From positions 1 to 29,956 of the IMG/VR virus record IMGVR_UViG_3300048014_000404: a DNA stretch of 29,956 nt; one strand, given 5' to 3'. Origin of the DNA: a virus. The translations under genes and the position numbers were made by a program. Position 1 is the stretch's first letter. The number at the start of each line of letters is the position of its first letter. A model generated the notes under the pieces. That model searched no databases, was not told the origin of the DNA, and saw nothing but the letters and a program-made list of their open reading frames with translations. Positions 17,447-23,728 of the stretch are shown here, in pieces.

Positions 17447-17647
17447 GAAATCAGGCTCCATCTGAAGGGACGGGACGCCATCCGGCGTTCCCTCTCGCCT
17501 TGCCCAAGGGCGCGTTGATAGTTCCGGATGGCGGGCTTCACCGGCCGGAAGGTCGATCCTTGCGATACTGCGTTGCGCCTGCGGCACCCTGGCGCGGTTG
17601 CGCCGGCCCGATCGGCGGGCCTACCAACGCAGGACCGTAGAGATTGG

Positions 17648-18361
17648 ATGTTGTCGATGTCGTCTGAACTGGAAATGCTCGTCACCGCCTTCGAGCGGGA
17701 CAACGCCGCGCTGGTGGCTCCGACCCAGGCCATGCTGGCCGGCTTCATCGCCGACCGGCCGCTGCATGCCCGCTTCATGAACACGCTGTCGATGCTGGAG
17801 CACCTGGGCAGCCACAAGATCATGGCGACCCAGCACGGCCCGCATATCGACCTGCCGACGCTGAAGCACCTGGCCGAGGAAACCCGTCACGCCTTCTTCT
17901 TCAAACGCCACGCCAACCGCGAGGCCGGCCGCGAGATGACCAGCGCCGTAACCGATATGATCACGCCTTTGGCCGCCCGCCGCTATTTCCAGCGGCTCGA
18001 GGCCGAAATGGTCCGCGCCTTCCCGGCGAACATCCATCCCCGCGCCGTCTACCTCACCATGTCGATAATCGTCGAATTCCGCGCCGTTTGGGGTTACCGC
18101 CTCTATCAGGCGGCGCTGGTCCGCGCCGGCAGTCTGGTGTCGCTCAAAAGCCTGCTGGCCGAGGAGAGCGGGCATTTGACGGATATGGCGCAGCGGCTGA
18201 GCGGTTTGGGTGAACTCGATATGGCACGGTTGCGCGGGTTTTGCGCTTTAGAATCGGCACTTTATGGCAGGTTGCTAGGCGCCTTCGCCGAGGCGGTTGA
18301 GCATCACCAAGCGGCATCGTCTGAAAGAGAATTTGATGCTGCTCGCGCCTGCTTTGGGTAA
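17648..18361 (+). CDS. Ferritin-like diiron protein
   Basis: A 237-residue, fully helical protein with a classic diiron carboxylate layout: E51 in MLEHLGSHK, E78-T-R-H81 in LAEETRHAFF, E143 in IIVEFRAVWGY, and E173-S-G-H176 in LLAEESGHL. The spacings (27 residues to the first ExxH, 29 between the second Glu and the second ExxH) match ferritin-like oxidase or oxygenase bundles. Iron binding and a redox role are inferred from family knowledge; the substrate is unknown. I chose the ATG at 17648 because the ~40 in-frame residues upstream look non-coding, though no strong Shine-Dalgarno is seen. It points away from the capsid gene, is GC-rich like the host, and is not a usual virion gene. It heads the plus-strand cargo island. 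Confidence 0.62.
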   Translation: MLSMSSELEMLVTAFERDNAALVAPTQAMLAGFIADRPLHARFMNTLSMLEHLGSHKIMATQHGPHIDLPTLKHLAEETRHAFFFKRHANREAGREMTSAVTDMITPLAARRYFQRLEAEMVRAFPANIHPRAVYLTMSIIVEFRAVWGYRLYQAALVRAGSLVSLKSLLAEESGHLTDMAQRLSGLGELDMARLRGFCALESALYGRLLGAFAEAVEHHQAASSEREFDAARACFG

Positions 18362-18433
18362 CACTTCCGGCATGTCGTCTGGGACGATGGCGATCAGAAA
18401 GTTTATCTTGAAATGCACCTTGATCGTTTTTTC

Positions 18434-18462
18434 TTGTTAGATCATCACGGCGGTTCGATAAT
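18434..18462 (+). promoter_or_regulatory. Candidate sigma-70 promoter of the OST-HTH operon
   Basis: TTGTTA and GATAAT are separated by exactly 17 bp, giving four and five matches to the consensus hexamers. The site lies in an AT-rich 165-bp gap, about 65 bp upstream of the TTG start at 18527. It would drive the two-gene plus-strand operon independently of the late genes. Confidence 0.45.
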
Positions 18463-18526
18463 ACCAATGCTGAAAACATCTCTGATTGTCCTAGTCGACC
18501 TACGCTCCTAAAATAAGGAATGAATT

Positions 18527-19228
18527 TTGTCAGACTCCGACACCCACGCCGTAGCGGAGCGCATCAAAGAATATGTATTGCAGCATTGGGCTGAGAGTAG
18601 AAATGCGCTGTTGCTATCTAAAATAGGTGCACGACTAAGGCAGGATGAGCCTCATTCCGTCGAAATTATCGGCAAGAGCCTTCGATTGTTTATCGATGCG
18701 ATTCCAGAAATCGCGGTCATTCAGCATCCGAATATCAGAGAAAGGGTAGGGGCCATTCCCGCTGATGTCGTGGGGCTCCATCCACCTGAGGAATTGCTAG
18801 CGCAGAGCGCCCCGGGGACAGCAAGGCCGTCCCTTCGCAGAGATTTTTGGGAAGCATTCTATCGTCCCATCAATGGGCGTAGATTCGTTTTACTGCATAA
18901 GAACGATGTTGGCGGTTTTTCGATTGATGATTTTGATGCTCCACCCCAAACTTCAGAAATTTCGGTAGAGATACTTGCTTCCGATTTAATCTCAGTTTCT
19001 AGAGAGATTAATCGTACGGACGCAATTTGGGAAAAAATAAGAGCTTGGTGTCAGCGAAACAATTTGAAAATCGACCTCTTCGTACTAAAAAGCCACACTC
19101 CGTCTTCAAGTTTTCAGAGTAGTAAGTCGTCTACCTTGTTATTAAAAGCGATCGAAAATTTGTCAGTCGAAGATCAGAAAAGGATATCTATTCCATTGGA
19201 TATACTGATTAAAATTATAGGAACTTAA
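18527..19228 (+). CDS. OST-HTH/LOTUS-like domain protein
   Basis: A 233-residue protein. Residues about 8-80 look like an OST-HTH (LOTUS) winged helix: ERIKEYVLQHWAESRNALLL, then SKIGARLRQ and IGKSLRLFIDAIPEIAVI. The remaining ~150 residues contain FWEAFYRPINGRRFVLLHK and a charged C-terminal helical part that I do not recognise. LOTUS domains bind RNA in known cases; RNA binding here is inferred. It starts with TTG, with AAGGAA 6 nt upstream and an in-frame TGA just before it, so no longer start exists. The TAA overlaps the next ATG by one base (TAATG), indicating coupling. Codon use and AT content differ sharply from the phage core, a sign of transfer. Confidence 0.5.
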   Translation: MSDSDTHAVAERIKEYVLQHWAESRNALLLSKIGARLRQDEPHSVEIIGKSLRLFIDAIPEIAVIQHPNIRERVGAIPADVVGLHPPEELLAQSAPGTARPSLRRDFWEAFYRPINGRRFVLLHKNDVGGFSIDDFDAPPQTSEISVEILASDLISVSREINRTDAIWEKIRAWCQRNNLKIDLFVLKSHTPSSSFQSSKSSTLLLKAIENLSVEDQKRISIPLDILIKIIGT

Positions 19229-20088
19229 TGGACTCCGCACAGCACATTCTCTTTATAGGTGCTTCGCCTTCAGTTGCTTCAGAACTCGCGAGAATCAAAA
19301 AGAGCTTTCGAAATACATGTATTACAGCTCCGGCTGCTCGAAAGCATGAGCGAGGTTTGTCTATAGCGGCAAGCGAAAAGGCACTTAAAGACCTCGTAAA
19401 GATTTTGTCTGTCGGATCAAATACCGAAGATGCAAGACTCTGCGTCTTTAGCTATGAATCGGTTAACCAAAACGAGAATAAAGAATTTAATCGGTTTTGG
19501 CATCCTGGTGCCTGGACGGAACTGCTTCCGCTATCACTTAGCAATCAACCAGCTGCTACTCGAATTCATATTGAGAGGCGACTTCGCGACATCCAAATAT
19601 GTCTCCACGAAATTTCCAACCATGTTTATAGAAGGCGCCGACGTTCACCCTTGTCTTTGCCGATTAAAAATTTCGATTCAGATGTTTCTAGAAAAATAAG
19701 TGATCTAAATTGGTACAAAAATAAGGACAAAGCTTCCATCGTTAGTTTTCTTCAGGGTCTACAGCGATCCTTCGTGGGTCAATGGTCAGCAAAAGGGGGG
19801 CACGTTGATAACCGAAACCTTTGTTACTCTCCCGCGAAGGATGAAATCTGTCATGGCCTACCCCACCCTGTTGGTTCAACCGACGGTTGTTTCTTGAAAG
19901 GCCGATTTAGATTTGGCGTCGCCTTATACCCAGGATTTCACTACGACGTAACGGACAATCGATCTCGCACGCTTGCCTGCACGCTCGTTGATTGTAACGG
20001 AGAACAAAGAGACCTCCGTTCTGAGAACCGCACCTACATCAATGTGTTTCCAAACGACCATCTGCTCCCTGCATTGAGATCTGCTTAA
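19228..20088 (+). CDS. Unrecognised protein coupled to the OST-HTH gene
   Basis: A 286-residue protein I do not recognise. The N-terminus looks like a Rossmann-type strand-turn (HILFIGASPSVASELARI), followed by a helical middle with a basic run YRRRRRSP near residue 130. The C-terminal ~100 residues are beta-rich and carry several His and Cys residues: CHGLPHPVGSTDGCF, YPGFHYDV and YINVFPNDHLLP. The H-Y-D and N-D-H motifs are plausible active-site or metal-ligand candidates, but this is not proven. The ATG overlaps the upstream TAA. The gene ends just before a hairpin terminator. It is AT-rich, without membrane segments or signal peptide. A two-gene defence or superinfection-exclusion unit is one explanation. 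Confidence 0.6.
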   Translation: MDSAQHILFIGASPSVASELARIKKSFRNTCITAPAARKHERGLSIAASEKALKDLVKILSVGSNTEDARLCVFSYESVNQNENKEFNRFWHPGAWTELLPLSLSNQPAATRIHIERRLRDIQICLHEISNHVYRRRRRSPLSLPIKNFDSDVSRKISDLNWYKNKDKASIVSFLQGLQRSFVGQWSAKGGHVDNRNLCYSPAKDEICHGLPHPVGSTDGCFLKGRFRFGVALYPGFHYDVTDNRSRTLACTLVDCNGEQRDLRSENRTYINVFPNDHLLPALRSA

Positions 20089-20094
20089 AACGCA

Positions 20095-20119
20095 AACAGG
20101 GCGCAATTTGCGCCCTGTT
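20095..20119. terminator. Hairpin terminator, possibly bidirectional
   Basis: ACAGGGCGCAA and TTGCGCCCTGT are perfectly complementary around one T (loop AATTT in practice), directly after the operon stop at 20088. On the minus strand the stem is followed by TTTGCGTTTT, and on the plus strand by CGTGTTT. Minus-strand late transcription would have to read through it to reach the capsid gene. Confidence 0.6.
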
Positions 20120-20133
20120 CGTGTTTCGATCAG

Positions 20134-20160
20134 TCACTTCGCCGCGGAGTGATCTTTTTA
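20134..20160 (+). terminator. Rho-independent terminator of the plus-strand operon
   Basis: TCACTTCG and CGGAGTGA form an 8-bp stem (one T-G wobble) with a three-base loop, followed immediately by TCTTTTTATT. It is a second terminator 40 bp after the first, ending the OST-HTH operon. Confidence 0.65.
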
Positions 20161-20185
20161 TTCAGACCCTCGCCGTGTGCCGGGT

Positions 20186-20458
20186 TTCAGCCTCTCTGAC
20201 GTCATGGCTGAAGCTGCACATTCACGATCCCCCTATACGCGCGCGGACTGAACACGACATCGTATAGGCTTCTCGACGGATATCGACGGTTATCTATATG
20301 CATACCTCTGAGGTGCCGTCAATCAAACTGGAGTTAACCGTTTGATTGAATCTGAACCCAATACCTAGGATTGGGTTCAGATCCGCTCCCATACAAGGGC
20401 GGATACCTTAGACGTATTTGAGGGCTTCCGTGGTAGTTTTCAACCAGGCTGTCTAAGG
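20186..20458. ncRNA. Candidate structured RNA or hairpin array
   Basis: No gene is seen in 20089-20474. The stretch is built of consecutive stem-loops: TTCAGCC/GGCTGAA (20186-20212), CCTATACG/CGTATAGG (20232-20268), GACGG/CCGTC enclosing ACCTCTGAGGT (20285-20320), TCAATCAAAC/GTTTGATTGA (20319-20349), a perfect 13-bp stem ATCTGAACCCAAT with loop ACCTAGG (20350-20382), ATCCG/CGGAT (20381-20404), and CCTTAGAC/GTCTAAGG (20406-20458). Adjacent stems share or nearly share boundaries, unlike random sequence. It matches no RNA family that I recall. The transcribed strand is unknown: it lies downstream of two plus-strand terminators, and also directly after the prohead protease gene on the minus strand. 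A DNA-level recombination or packaging site is the alternative. Confidence 0.5.
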
Positions 20459-20474
20459 AAGAAGAGGACGATCC

Positions 20475-21275
20475 CTACCCATTCGCAAGCCGCTCGATCT
20501 GCCCCAGCGTCAGCGGCTGCCGCAGCGCCCGCTTCGTCAGCTCCACCGGATCGCTGGTAACCGCCTCGGCGGACCGAAACCCGCCCAGCCGATCGGTGGA
20601 TTTCTCGATCGGCACCGCGCGCAGCGCCGCCTTGCGCTCCGCCGGCATCCGGGCGAGTGCCTTTTTCAGCGCGTCGTGCTCGGCGATCAGGCCGGCGATC
20701 TTGTCGGCCATGTCATCGCCCTGCTCGTCATCTCCGGCATCGTCGTCCAAAGCGCAGCCGTCGCAGGCGGCGCCCAGGGCGACCGCCTGATCGTGAATGG
20801 CCTGGATCGTGGCAAGGTCGGCAGCCGAGTTGCGCGCACCGACCTTTTCCACGGCTTCGGCCTTATACATGGTGAACACCGCCTCGGGGTTGGCGGGCCG
20901 GTCGACCAGGCTGATCTCCGAGAGTTTCACGCCGGTGATCACATGCTTCTGCGCCCGGTCGCGCCCGACCACGCTGCCGCCGATGGAAAAGCCCTTATAG
21001 ACGCCGGCGGTCACCTTCTCCCATGCGGTCGGGTCGACGATATGGGCGGCGAGGAACAGGCCGCGCGCGTCCATCTCCGCCTCCGTCGCCACGCCCACGG
21101 CCGAGGGCTGGTGCATCTCGCGGATATTGGCGAAACGCATATAGTCGGGCAGGGCCGCCTCCAGCGCCTCGCGCTTCACGATCTCGCCCTGGCTGTCCAG
21201 CGCCTCGGTCGAGGCATAGCCGAACACCATCTGCTGGTCCTCGTCGATCTTGGTGATTGGGGCGTAGAGTTTCAT
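20475..21275 (-). CDS. Prohead serine protease, XkdF-like, with C-terminal scaffold-like region
   Basis: A 266-residue protein. Residues 1-130 form the protease: QQMVFGYASTEALDSQGEIV, H55 in REMHQPSAVG, S97 in YKGFSIGGSVVGR, then LSEISLVDRPANPEA. This is the XkdF/S78-type prohead protease pattern with a His/Ser catalytic pair. The C-terminal half is acidic and helical (DDDAGDDEQGDDMADKIAGL and following helix), likely a fused scaffold that is removed during maturation. Its ATG overlaps the portal TGA (ATGA at 21272-21275). Normally the capsid gene would follow directly; here 3 kb of opposite-strand cargo intervenes. Confidence 0.85.
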   Translation of the reverse strand: MKLYAPITKIDEDQQMVFGYASTEALDSQGEIVKREALEAALPDYMRFANIREMHQPSAVGVATEAEMDARGLFLAAHIVDPTAWEKVTAGVYKGFSIGGSVVGRDRAQKHVITGVKLSEISLVDRPANPEAVFTMYKAEAVEKVGARNSAADLATIQAIHDQAVALGAACDGCALDDDAGDDEQGDDMADKIAGLIAEHDALKKALARMPAERKAALRAVPIEKSTDRLGGFRSAEAVTSDPVELTKRALRQPLTLGQIERLANG

Positions 21276-22655: not shown

Positions 22656-23105
22656 TCAGGCGGCATCCGGGATCCCCACCGCGTTGAAAAAGGAATGAAG
22701 CTGGATGATGCGTCCGCCCACCGTTCGGCAGGTGAAGCCCAGCAGGTAGCGGGCCGCCGGCGGCTGGCCGATCGCCTGCGCCGCCACGGTGCCCATCAGC
22801 ATGGGCTGCCCGTCCAAGGCCGCCGCGAAATTGGCGGCCGGGATATCGACGGGGAAGAACAAGGTCTGCAAACTATTCGGATCGAGCCTGTCGCCGATAT
22901 CCAGCGCCGGCGCCAGGTCGATGGCGAAGACATCGTCGGCGGCGGTGGATAAAGGTTGGAAATCCCGTCCGGCATAGCCGGAAATGAAGACCGGGCTGAG
23001 TATCCGCCGAGGATTCAGCGCTACCCCGCCGCCGCGCAGGCCGTCCAGGCAGAACGAGTTCGGCCCGCCTTGCCCCAAACCGAGCGTAATCGGCCAGCCT
23101 GGCAT
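22656..23105 (-). CDS. Hypothetical small virion-associated protein
   Basis: A 149-residue beta-rich protein. It opens PGWPITLGLGQGGPNSFCLD and ends with GRIIQLHSFFNAVG; there are no catalytic motifs or membrane segments. AGGAG lies 6 nt before the ATG at 23105, which supports this start over the longer in-frame run to 23921 that shadows neighbouring genes. Its position between a tail-type protein and the portal suggests a head or neck accessory protein. The family is not recognised. Confidence 0.65.
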   Translation of the reverse strand: MPGWPITLGLGQGGPNSFCLDGLRGGGVALNPRRILSPVFISGYAGRDFQPLSTAADDVFAIDLAPALDIGDRLDPNSLQTLFFPVDIPAANFAAALDGQPMLMGTVAAQAIGQPPAARYLLGFTCRTVGGRIIQLHSFFNAVGIPDAA

Positions 23106-23141
23106 GGCATTCTCCTGATATGTCGAAGGCGAGCGCGGGGT

Positions 23142-23172
23142 CTTGGAGACAGATTGCAATTTGTCTCCCAAG
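23142..23172. other. Strong intergenic stem-loop
   Basis: GGAGACA pairs with TGTCTCC around the palindrome ATTGCAAT, and the stem extends by CTT/AAG past one bulged C. It fills the 89-bp gap between two late genes. There is no U-run on the minus strand, so it looks more like an mRNA processing or stability element than a terminator. Confidence 0.5.
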
Positions 23173-23194
23173 GAACATCGGCCTGGGCTGGCCG

Positions 23195-23728
23195 CTAAGC
23201 CGCCCGCCGGCGGGAGGTCGGGGCGGTGGCGCTGTCCAGCGTGAAGCTCATCGCCGGCGTCATCCCGTCCAGCCGGTTGGCGGTCAGCGTGACGCCGTCC
23301 TGCGAGATGTTTCCCAGCACGGCGGATATTCCATAGAGCAGTTGCGCCAAGGTCGCCGGCGCGCCGTTGGCGGCATAGCTCTCGGGCAGCGCGGTTGCGA
23401 GCACGCCATCCGTGACCTGGGACAAGGTCGGAACCGCGCTGTACGGATCGAGCGCTACCACCTGGGTTTTCACGTCGGCCGGATCGCCACCGGCGGCGGT
23501 GGCGTGCAGCAGCAATATGCCGTCCGTCGTGACGTCGCTCCCGGACGGGGTCAGCTTGTACCAGCCTGAACCGACCTCGGCGACCGTGCCGGCGGGCGCC
23601 GCGAAGGCGCCGCCATTCTTCGACAGCAGAACCGTCGGCGCCGCGCCGGCCAGCCCGGTTACATGATCGCCGGCCTGAGCCAGGAAAAACAGGATCGGAC
23701 GGGAATCGCCGTTCAGAATCAGCTGCAT
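23195..23728 (-). CDS. Phage tail-type protein (baseplate/fibre N-terminal-like)
   Basis: A 177-residue protein. Its first ~100 residues match a widespread phage tail domain: DHVTGLAGAAPTVLLSKNGG, AAPAGTVAEVGSGWYKL, DGILLLHATAAGGDPADVKT and QVVALDPYSA. Such domains usually attach fibres or decorate virions. The C-terminal part (ATLAQLLYGISAVLGN and after) looks like a short helical linker, ending in a basic SRRRAA. AAGGG lies 7 nt before the ATG. It follows the SGNH tail protein gene by 14 bp, so the two probably act together at the tail. Confidence 0.7.
   Translation of the reverse strand: MQLILNGDSRPILFFLAQAGDHVTGLAGAAPTVLLSKNGGAFAAPAGTVAEVGSGWYKLTPSGSDVTTDGILLLHATAAGGDPADVKTQVVALDPYSAVPTLSQVTDGVLATALPESYAANGAPATLAQLLYGISAVLGNISQDGVTLTANRLDGMTPAMSFTLDSATAPTSRRRAA

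Follow-up and report, generated by a model that had tools for sequence, protein, structure and literature searches.

The question raised by this locus is what is encoded by a gene-free, hairpin-filled gap at positions 20095-20458 of an IMG/VR virus record (IMGVR_UViG_3300048014_000404). The window, meaning the whole stretch of DNA analysed, is this record at its full length of 29,956 bases. The gap and two overlapping plus-strand genes (18527-19228 and 19228-20088) sit between the minus-strand capsid and prohead protease genes, and the G+C content of the cassette stretch is ~40-50%, against 65% in the surroundings. Perfect stems in 20095-20458 were counted against dinucleotide shuffles. Five stems of at least 8 base pairs (bp; loops of at most 40) were observed where shuffles gave 0.15 +/- 0.37, and three of at least 10 bp where shuffles gave 0.01. 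This count is the joint highest in the 30-kilobase (kb) record; in the same scan 23101-23586 ties with the studied region, with up to four perfect stems of at least 8 bp per 365 bases. The folding z-score of the gap is -6.1 on the plus strand and -5.4 on the minus strand. The individual stem-loops of the original prediction were borne out (13 of 13, 10 of 10 and two 8 of 8 bp stems, with the excess over shuffles given above), and its description of them as a single array of consecutive stem-loops was not. The hairpins are two different things: those in 20095-20293 lie within a conserved RNA, and those at 20319-20458 lie outside it, upstream of its predicted promoter, and are not conserved. We propose that the gap supplies the RNA of a mobile cassette with three components: a winged-helix protein, a second protein of a new family and a convergent, pseudoknotted RNA of ~190 nucleotides (nt).

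The features of the RNA in the window are the following.

20095-20293, minus: structured noncoding RNA, ~190 nt (leave-one-out covariance model, covariation, alifold z -6.6)
20293-20125, minus: covariance-model core; predicted 5' end near 20287-20285, predicted 3' end inside the terminator
20232-20268, minus: helix P2b (8 of 8 bp), CCTATAC/GTATAGG; relatives have CTC(A)TAAC/GTTAGAG and CTTCAAC/GTTGAAG
20184-20213, minus: region of helix P3, inner arms TCAGC/GCTGA, outer arms TGTGC/GCACA nearby
20246-20251, minus: 5' arm of the pseudoknot in the P2b loop, TCAGTC, pairing with 20130-20135
20130-20135, minus: 3' arm of the pseudoknot, GACTGA, pairing with 20246-20251

A covariance model built with the window left out (R2) matched 20293-20125 on the minus strand at 62.1 bits (E 1.2e-15), with no further match in the whole record. 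By its sequence the window RNA is classed as a divergent member of the family. In every close relative a hairpin of variable sequence comes after the operon, and a conserved stretch of ~165 nt comes next; RNA length across loci is 161-169 nt, with the variation spread over the helices. The common structure comprises helices P1, P2a/b, P3 and P4, and the loop of P2b pairs with the 3' side to form a pseudoknot. Once the window is included in the alignment, standard pairs fill 92-93% of pair cells. None of 500 shuffles matched the observed pairing, and in controls with a slid structure just 29-41% of cells paired. The arms of the pseudoknot change across loci yet remain complementary (CTGAGTT/AACTCAG, CCTGAG/CTCAGG, and TCAGTC/GACTGA in the window). 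The original prediction had named compensatory changes and conservation in homologous loci as the check on a structured RNA; this check was run and did not refute the RNA, both-side changes being found in 15-16 of the 36 pairs. The seventh aligned sequence (L005) is a near copy of L004 and contributes little. Hand-picked helix arms favour the chosen strand by construction, and the alignment-based counts are the reliable ones.

Unsupervised RNAalifold recovered nearly the same structure on the minus strand (-34.6 kcal/mol, versus -28.0 kcal/mol on the plus strand; z -6.6). Single-sequence folding of the 169-nt core is unremarkable (z +0.2, minus strand of the window), so the evidence for the RNA is comparative. 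Three unpaired motifs are conserved (CGGCGA, TCCGTGG and ATGATC). No shared open frame was found within the RNA, nor a tandem repeat array; the only repeats are 10-nt two-copy matches (D4 and D5), likely due to chance. No family of Rfam 15 matched above its gathering threshold in the window or in the RNAs of L004 and L006-L009, and the best match below threshold (sraA, 25.5 bits against 56) falls on the terminator hairpin. From these comparisons the RNA is judged to be real, structured and encoded on the minus strand, and each of the six recognisable loci has it next to the protein pair.

Strand and transcript ends were assigned using the following signals.

20317-20322, minus: -35-like hexamer TTGACG; TTGAC is found on the convergent strand in all loci
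20293-20298, minus: -10-like hexamer TATAGA after an 18-nt spacer; relatives have TATAAG, TATACA, CATAAA and TATCCT
20095-20119, minus: terminator hairpin, an inverted repeat of 11 perfect pairs with a 3-nt loop and the tail TTTGCGTTTT; the hairpins of relatives have long T tails on the same strand

All 8 loci carry TTGAC on the convergent strand, versus 2 of 8 on the other strand, and in seven of them it lies 227-253 nt away from the stop of the operon. A locus has a chance of 0.21-0.45 of carrying it, and the six close loci are homologous to one another; this count was therefore treated as supportive and not as independent proof. The full -35/-10 match was better than most shuffles in L006, L007, L008, L016 and L099; it did not beat shuffles in the window (43 of 200 as good), L004 or L009. 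In L004, L006, L008 and L009 the hairpin on the operon side is followed by T-rich sequence on the minus strand. In the fold predicted for the plus strand, A.C cells are more numerous than G.U cells once one invariant end pair is set aside; these A.C cells are G.U on the minus strand. An RNA on the plus strand was rejected on this wobble pattern together with the promoter, the terminator tails and the alifold energy. We infer that the RNA is a minus-strand transcript, convergent with the operon and equipped with its own promoter and terminator, with a predicted extent of ~20286 to ~20095.

The first two hairpins had been read as terminators of the operon. The first is better read as the RNA's own terminator, possibly a bidirectional one, and the second as part of the RNA. 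No conserved hairpin was found for the proposed plus-strand terminator at 20133-20153, the bases of which contribute to helices P1 and P4 and to the pseudoknot in the minus-strand RNA. The further proposal of a structured noncoding RNA acting with the operon holds for the proximal half of the gap as regards the RNA (covariation, constant linkage to the operon); acting with the operon is suggested by the linkage, the strand is minus, and there is no plus-strand array of nine stem-loops. ACGGTTA (20286-20292) and TAACCGT (20335-20341) form an inverted repeat around the RNA promoter. An operator role for the repeats around this promoter (ACGGTTA/TAACCGT, and the 10-bp repeat over the -35 hexamer) is conceivable. 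On plasmid pSA2 an IS3 element (L005:7187-8415) is inserted just past the RNA promoter, with the RNA and the promoter-like site intact.

The two genes of the cassette are as follows.

18527-19228, plus: first gene, 233 amino acids; predicted N-terminal winged helix, middle region, conserved C-terminal RISIPLDI motif
19228-20088, plus: second gene, 286 amino acids; predicted Rossmann-like N-terminal half, conserved HG..HP, GRFRxG, GFHY and YINxFPND motifs

The same RNA occupies the same place in five loci whose two-gene operons are 35-41% identical (Novosphingobium, three Rhodobacteraceae and Rhizobium), and in all loci it lies 3' of the operon on the opposite strand. Relatives of the second protein were found on two Novosphingobium resinovorum megaplasmids (37% identity) and in Pseudaestuariivita, Roseobacter, Aliiroseovarius and Rhizobium (37-41% identity); in all of them the first gene is immediately upstream of the second, overlapping or abutting it. 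The Rhizobium second gene (L009:6001-6852) is split by a frameshift, and the RNA there is intact (151.8 bits). L016 and L099/L101 have very distant pairs in which the gene order is unchanged. L016 and L099 have a strong hairpin directly after the stop of the second gene and TTGACA on the convergent strand, at 298-322 and 239 nt respectively. The cassette appears to be rare in the genomes searched. Just the three known carriers were present among 395 sampled genomes of the family of L008, and the known carrier and a distant relative (L016) among 395 sampled genomes of the family of L009. No additional cassette was found in 385 genomes of the class, and under strict filters no RNA without the proteins in 190 genomes of the class. 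No relative of either protein was found in viral_contigs, where a DNA pattern of the RNA gave 7 matches, taken as chance since none was matched by the model.

Searches of Pfam, NCBIfam, PADLOC and PHROGs gave no significant match for either protein. A few family matches are marginal, for example Sigma54_activ_2 (E 0.0025, below its cut-off), and are not common to the homologues. PDB sequence profiles gave nothing credible for the cassette proteins, and family library scans recognised no nuclease domain in either. Residues 1-84 of the first protein align to winged-helix folds (VIA-align; Z up to 7.4, root-mean-square deviation 2.6, 69 aligned), a Z that may reflect a common arrangement only. 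With tied rows and a model whose predicted local distance difference test (pLDDT) score is 62, the alignments do not single out one winged-helix family. The first protein had been called LOTUS-like (OST-HTH). The winged-helix fold is upheld as a prediction, and the LOTUS identity is compatible with the data and possible: a TDRD5 LOTUS chain is among the weak Foldseek matches (rank 7, E 1.3), and other winged helices score equally well or higher. LOTUS chains are absent among 50 listed VIA-align rows, which excludes nothing. The OST-HTH profile (PF12872) matched none of seven homologues in Pfam scans reaching E 5, an absence that is no proof for a domain so short and divergent. For the second protein the PDB fold matches are Rossmann-like only, at E 0.014 or worse, from a weak AlphaFold model; its C-terminal half is conserved, with invariant H, N and D residues.

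The distal hairpins of the gap are perfect inverted repeats.

20319-20349: 10-bp repeat, overlapping the -35 hexamer; not conserved, outside the RNA
20350-20382: 13-bp repeat; not conserved, outside the RNA; none of 80 related phage loci matches it
20406-20458: 8-bp repeat with a 37-nt loop; not conserved, outside the RNA

None of 300 shuffles of 20319-20458 was as good. The repeats have no T tails and were seen in no other locus among related phages or cassettes.

The position of the cassette within the phage was then delimited by DNA homology.

18292-20475: inserted cargo (cassette and hairpins); DNA homology to relatives ends at 20475-20477 and resumes at ~18276-18292

In place of the cargo, L023 and L048 have 62 bp alone between the protease gene and the neighbouring plus-strand gene, and other related phages hold different cargo of 0.9-1.9 kb in this slot (L019, L020, L024, L031, L035 and L038). 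In the 80 related phage loci, 18292-20475 had no DNA match and no RNA match by covariance model R1, and an element native to the phage was ruled out on this ground. A late messenger RNA element on the minus strand, also suggested originally, is contradicted by loci outside phages, in which the RNA accompanies the operon, and by the protease-capsid neighbours of related phages, which are without the RNA; for a DNA recombination or packaging site no evidence was found. Only some of the phages have the adjacent plus-strand gene, which lies at 17528-18361 and has a weak ferritin-like match. The slot cargo of L031, L035 and L038 encodes secreted-type proteins, sometimes as tandem pairs, ending by reading in a PEP-CTERM-like sorting tail (VPEP...LFLTG...RRR).

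Cassette loci include plasmids, islands and a phage, and their neighbours were inspected for defence genes. L004 has an NTase-HEPN gene upstream and an Ietas-type ATPase and a DUF6414 gene downstream. Upstream in L006 are type I HsdM (by reading) and HsdS and an Abi_C-like gene. L007 has a PDC-S36 candidate defence gene and, by reading, an integrase-like gene, and L009 a type III-like methyltransferase. In L101 the very distant pair lies directly downstream of an HmaA fragment, HmaB and HmaC, as the last two genes of the operon. Hma was put forward as a defence system (PMC8565338) and was regrouped among DUF499-centred BREX-related systems (PMC12839542). In this Hma operon (L101:7199-15948, minus), as far as the stretch seen extends, HmaA is apparently no more than a C-terminal fragment. 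Downstream, L099 has pieces of group II intron (265-540, minus).

On balance we consider it somewhat probable that the locus is a mobile RNA-protein cassette of defence type, with an RNA that binds the two proteins and probably holds them in check or scaffolds them. The RNA would be transcribed from its own promoter and bound by the pair to form a ribonucleoprotein, with the winged-helix protein as the likely RNA binder. The complex would keep the second, presumed effector, protein inactive or properly assembled. Entry of a phage or plasmid may upset the complex and so trigger defence, and the phage would carry the cassette as cargo that protects its lysogenic host from rivals. The mode would be akin to that of RNA-restrained systems such as AbiF or type III toxin-antitoxin; the proteins, the RNA and the gene layout differ. 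Transcription, formation of the ribonucleoprotein, restraint, trigger and effect are all inferred, and a defence role is likely from genomic context. Several points weigh against this reading. The covariance model does not recognise the RNAs of L016 and L099, the most distant loci with the same layout. The searched data held just six recognisable loci, partly related, and one of these (L008) is a tRNA-side island alone, with no recognised defence gene. The protein models are poor (pLDDT 51 and 62), and their fold supports neither RNA binding nor effector activity. The RNA could also have targets unrelated to the two proteins.

The best-surviving alternative is a strict antitoxin RNA, in which one protein is toxic alone, the RNA neutralises it by direct binding, and the unit chiefly secures maintenance of the element, not defence against phages. 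Compact, constantly linked RNA and proteins on plasmids, islands and a phage would fit this, and AbiF with RCd22 works in this way in a phage (PMC12373285). We rate it as fairly unlikely, given an RNA that is without sequence repeats and is convergent, not upstream and co-transcribed, the lack of a recognised toxin fold, and a defence-island context that points beyond maintenance. A guide or tracr-like scaffold RNA directing the proteins to nucleic-acid targets would agree with a pseudoknotted RNA that has conserved unpaired motifs and two linked proteins, but with no variable guide-like segment common to all loci and no nuclease domain recognised we hold it to be quite improbable. Just as improbable is an RNA that regulates the operon, or messenger RNAs of the host or a phage, in trans or as an antisense RNA and makes no lasting contact with the two proteins: the RNA is convergent and ends beside the operon stop, but the terminator between them leaves hardly any overlap with coding sequence, and conservation tracks structure. 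Mere terminators and chance inverted repeats at the edge of the cargo may account for the hairpins at 20319-20458, which have no relatives, but for 20095-20293 this is contradicted by covariation and by the independent model match and is refuted there, leaving next to no probability for it as an account of the gap.

The favoured reading, an RNA-containing defence cassette, has a bolder form. The cassette may represent a new class of anti-phage ribonucleoprotein in mobile elements of Alphaproteobacteria, with a remote form on an Hma/BREX-related operon, distinct from toxin-antitoxin, retron and CRISPR-like systems; we regard this tentatively, as plausible if short of probable. Within the open-access literature looked at, the RNA and the protein pair are probably previously undescribed. 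CRISPR, retrons, type III toxin-antitoxin, AbiF and defence-associated reverse transcriptases (DRT) are RNA-containing defence systems that each opened a new mechanism. To these the cassette would add an RNA without an Rfam relative and two proteins that match no family significantly, all within a compact ~2-kb unit suited to cloning in one piece. Judging from the distant copy that closes an Hma operon, larger systems may be able to use the protein pair as a module. With the covariance model and the assigned strand, further members can be sought directly.

The cassette was compared with known systems. OST-HTH/LOTUS proteins (PMC2848206) share with the first cassette protein a predicted N-terminal winged helix; the bacterial ones are usually fused to an LK-nuclease domain, whereas the cassette protein has no such fusion and no Pfam match. 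With the Hma/DUF499-centred BREX-related systems (PMC8565338, PMC12839542) the link is the very distant pair that ends the Hma operon in L101. No HmaABC was recognised beside the pair in the window or the five close loci, within the stretches seen, and no Hma genes are apparent among the part of the window genes that was scanned, the other large frames reading as phage genes. Retrons and DRT resemble the cassette in that they link proteins to a structured RNA and occur in defence islands and prophages, but the cassette genes give no reverse transcriptase match. Type III toxin-antitoxin systems (ToxIN and relatives) likewise combine a pseudoknotted RNA and a protein on mobile elements; the cassette differs in having no tandem repeats and no recognised toxin of that kind, and in an RNA that is 3' and convergent, not 5' of the toxin gene. 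In AbiF/Abi_2 of Clostridioides difficile (RCd22; PMC12373285) a structured noncoding RNA with its own promoter and terminator lies beside a phage-borne defence-type protein gene, as predicted here. RCd22 is a 132-nt RNA with two repeated motifs, upstream of and co-transcribed with an Abi_2-family protein, unlike the convergent, repeat-free cassette RNA, and neither cassette protein matches the Abi_2/AbiD/F family in Pfam or PADLOC. By the features tested, the cassette is no member of the type III, AbiF or retron families, and AbiF with RCd22 appears to be its closest working parallel.
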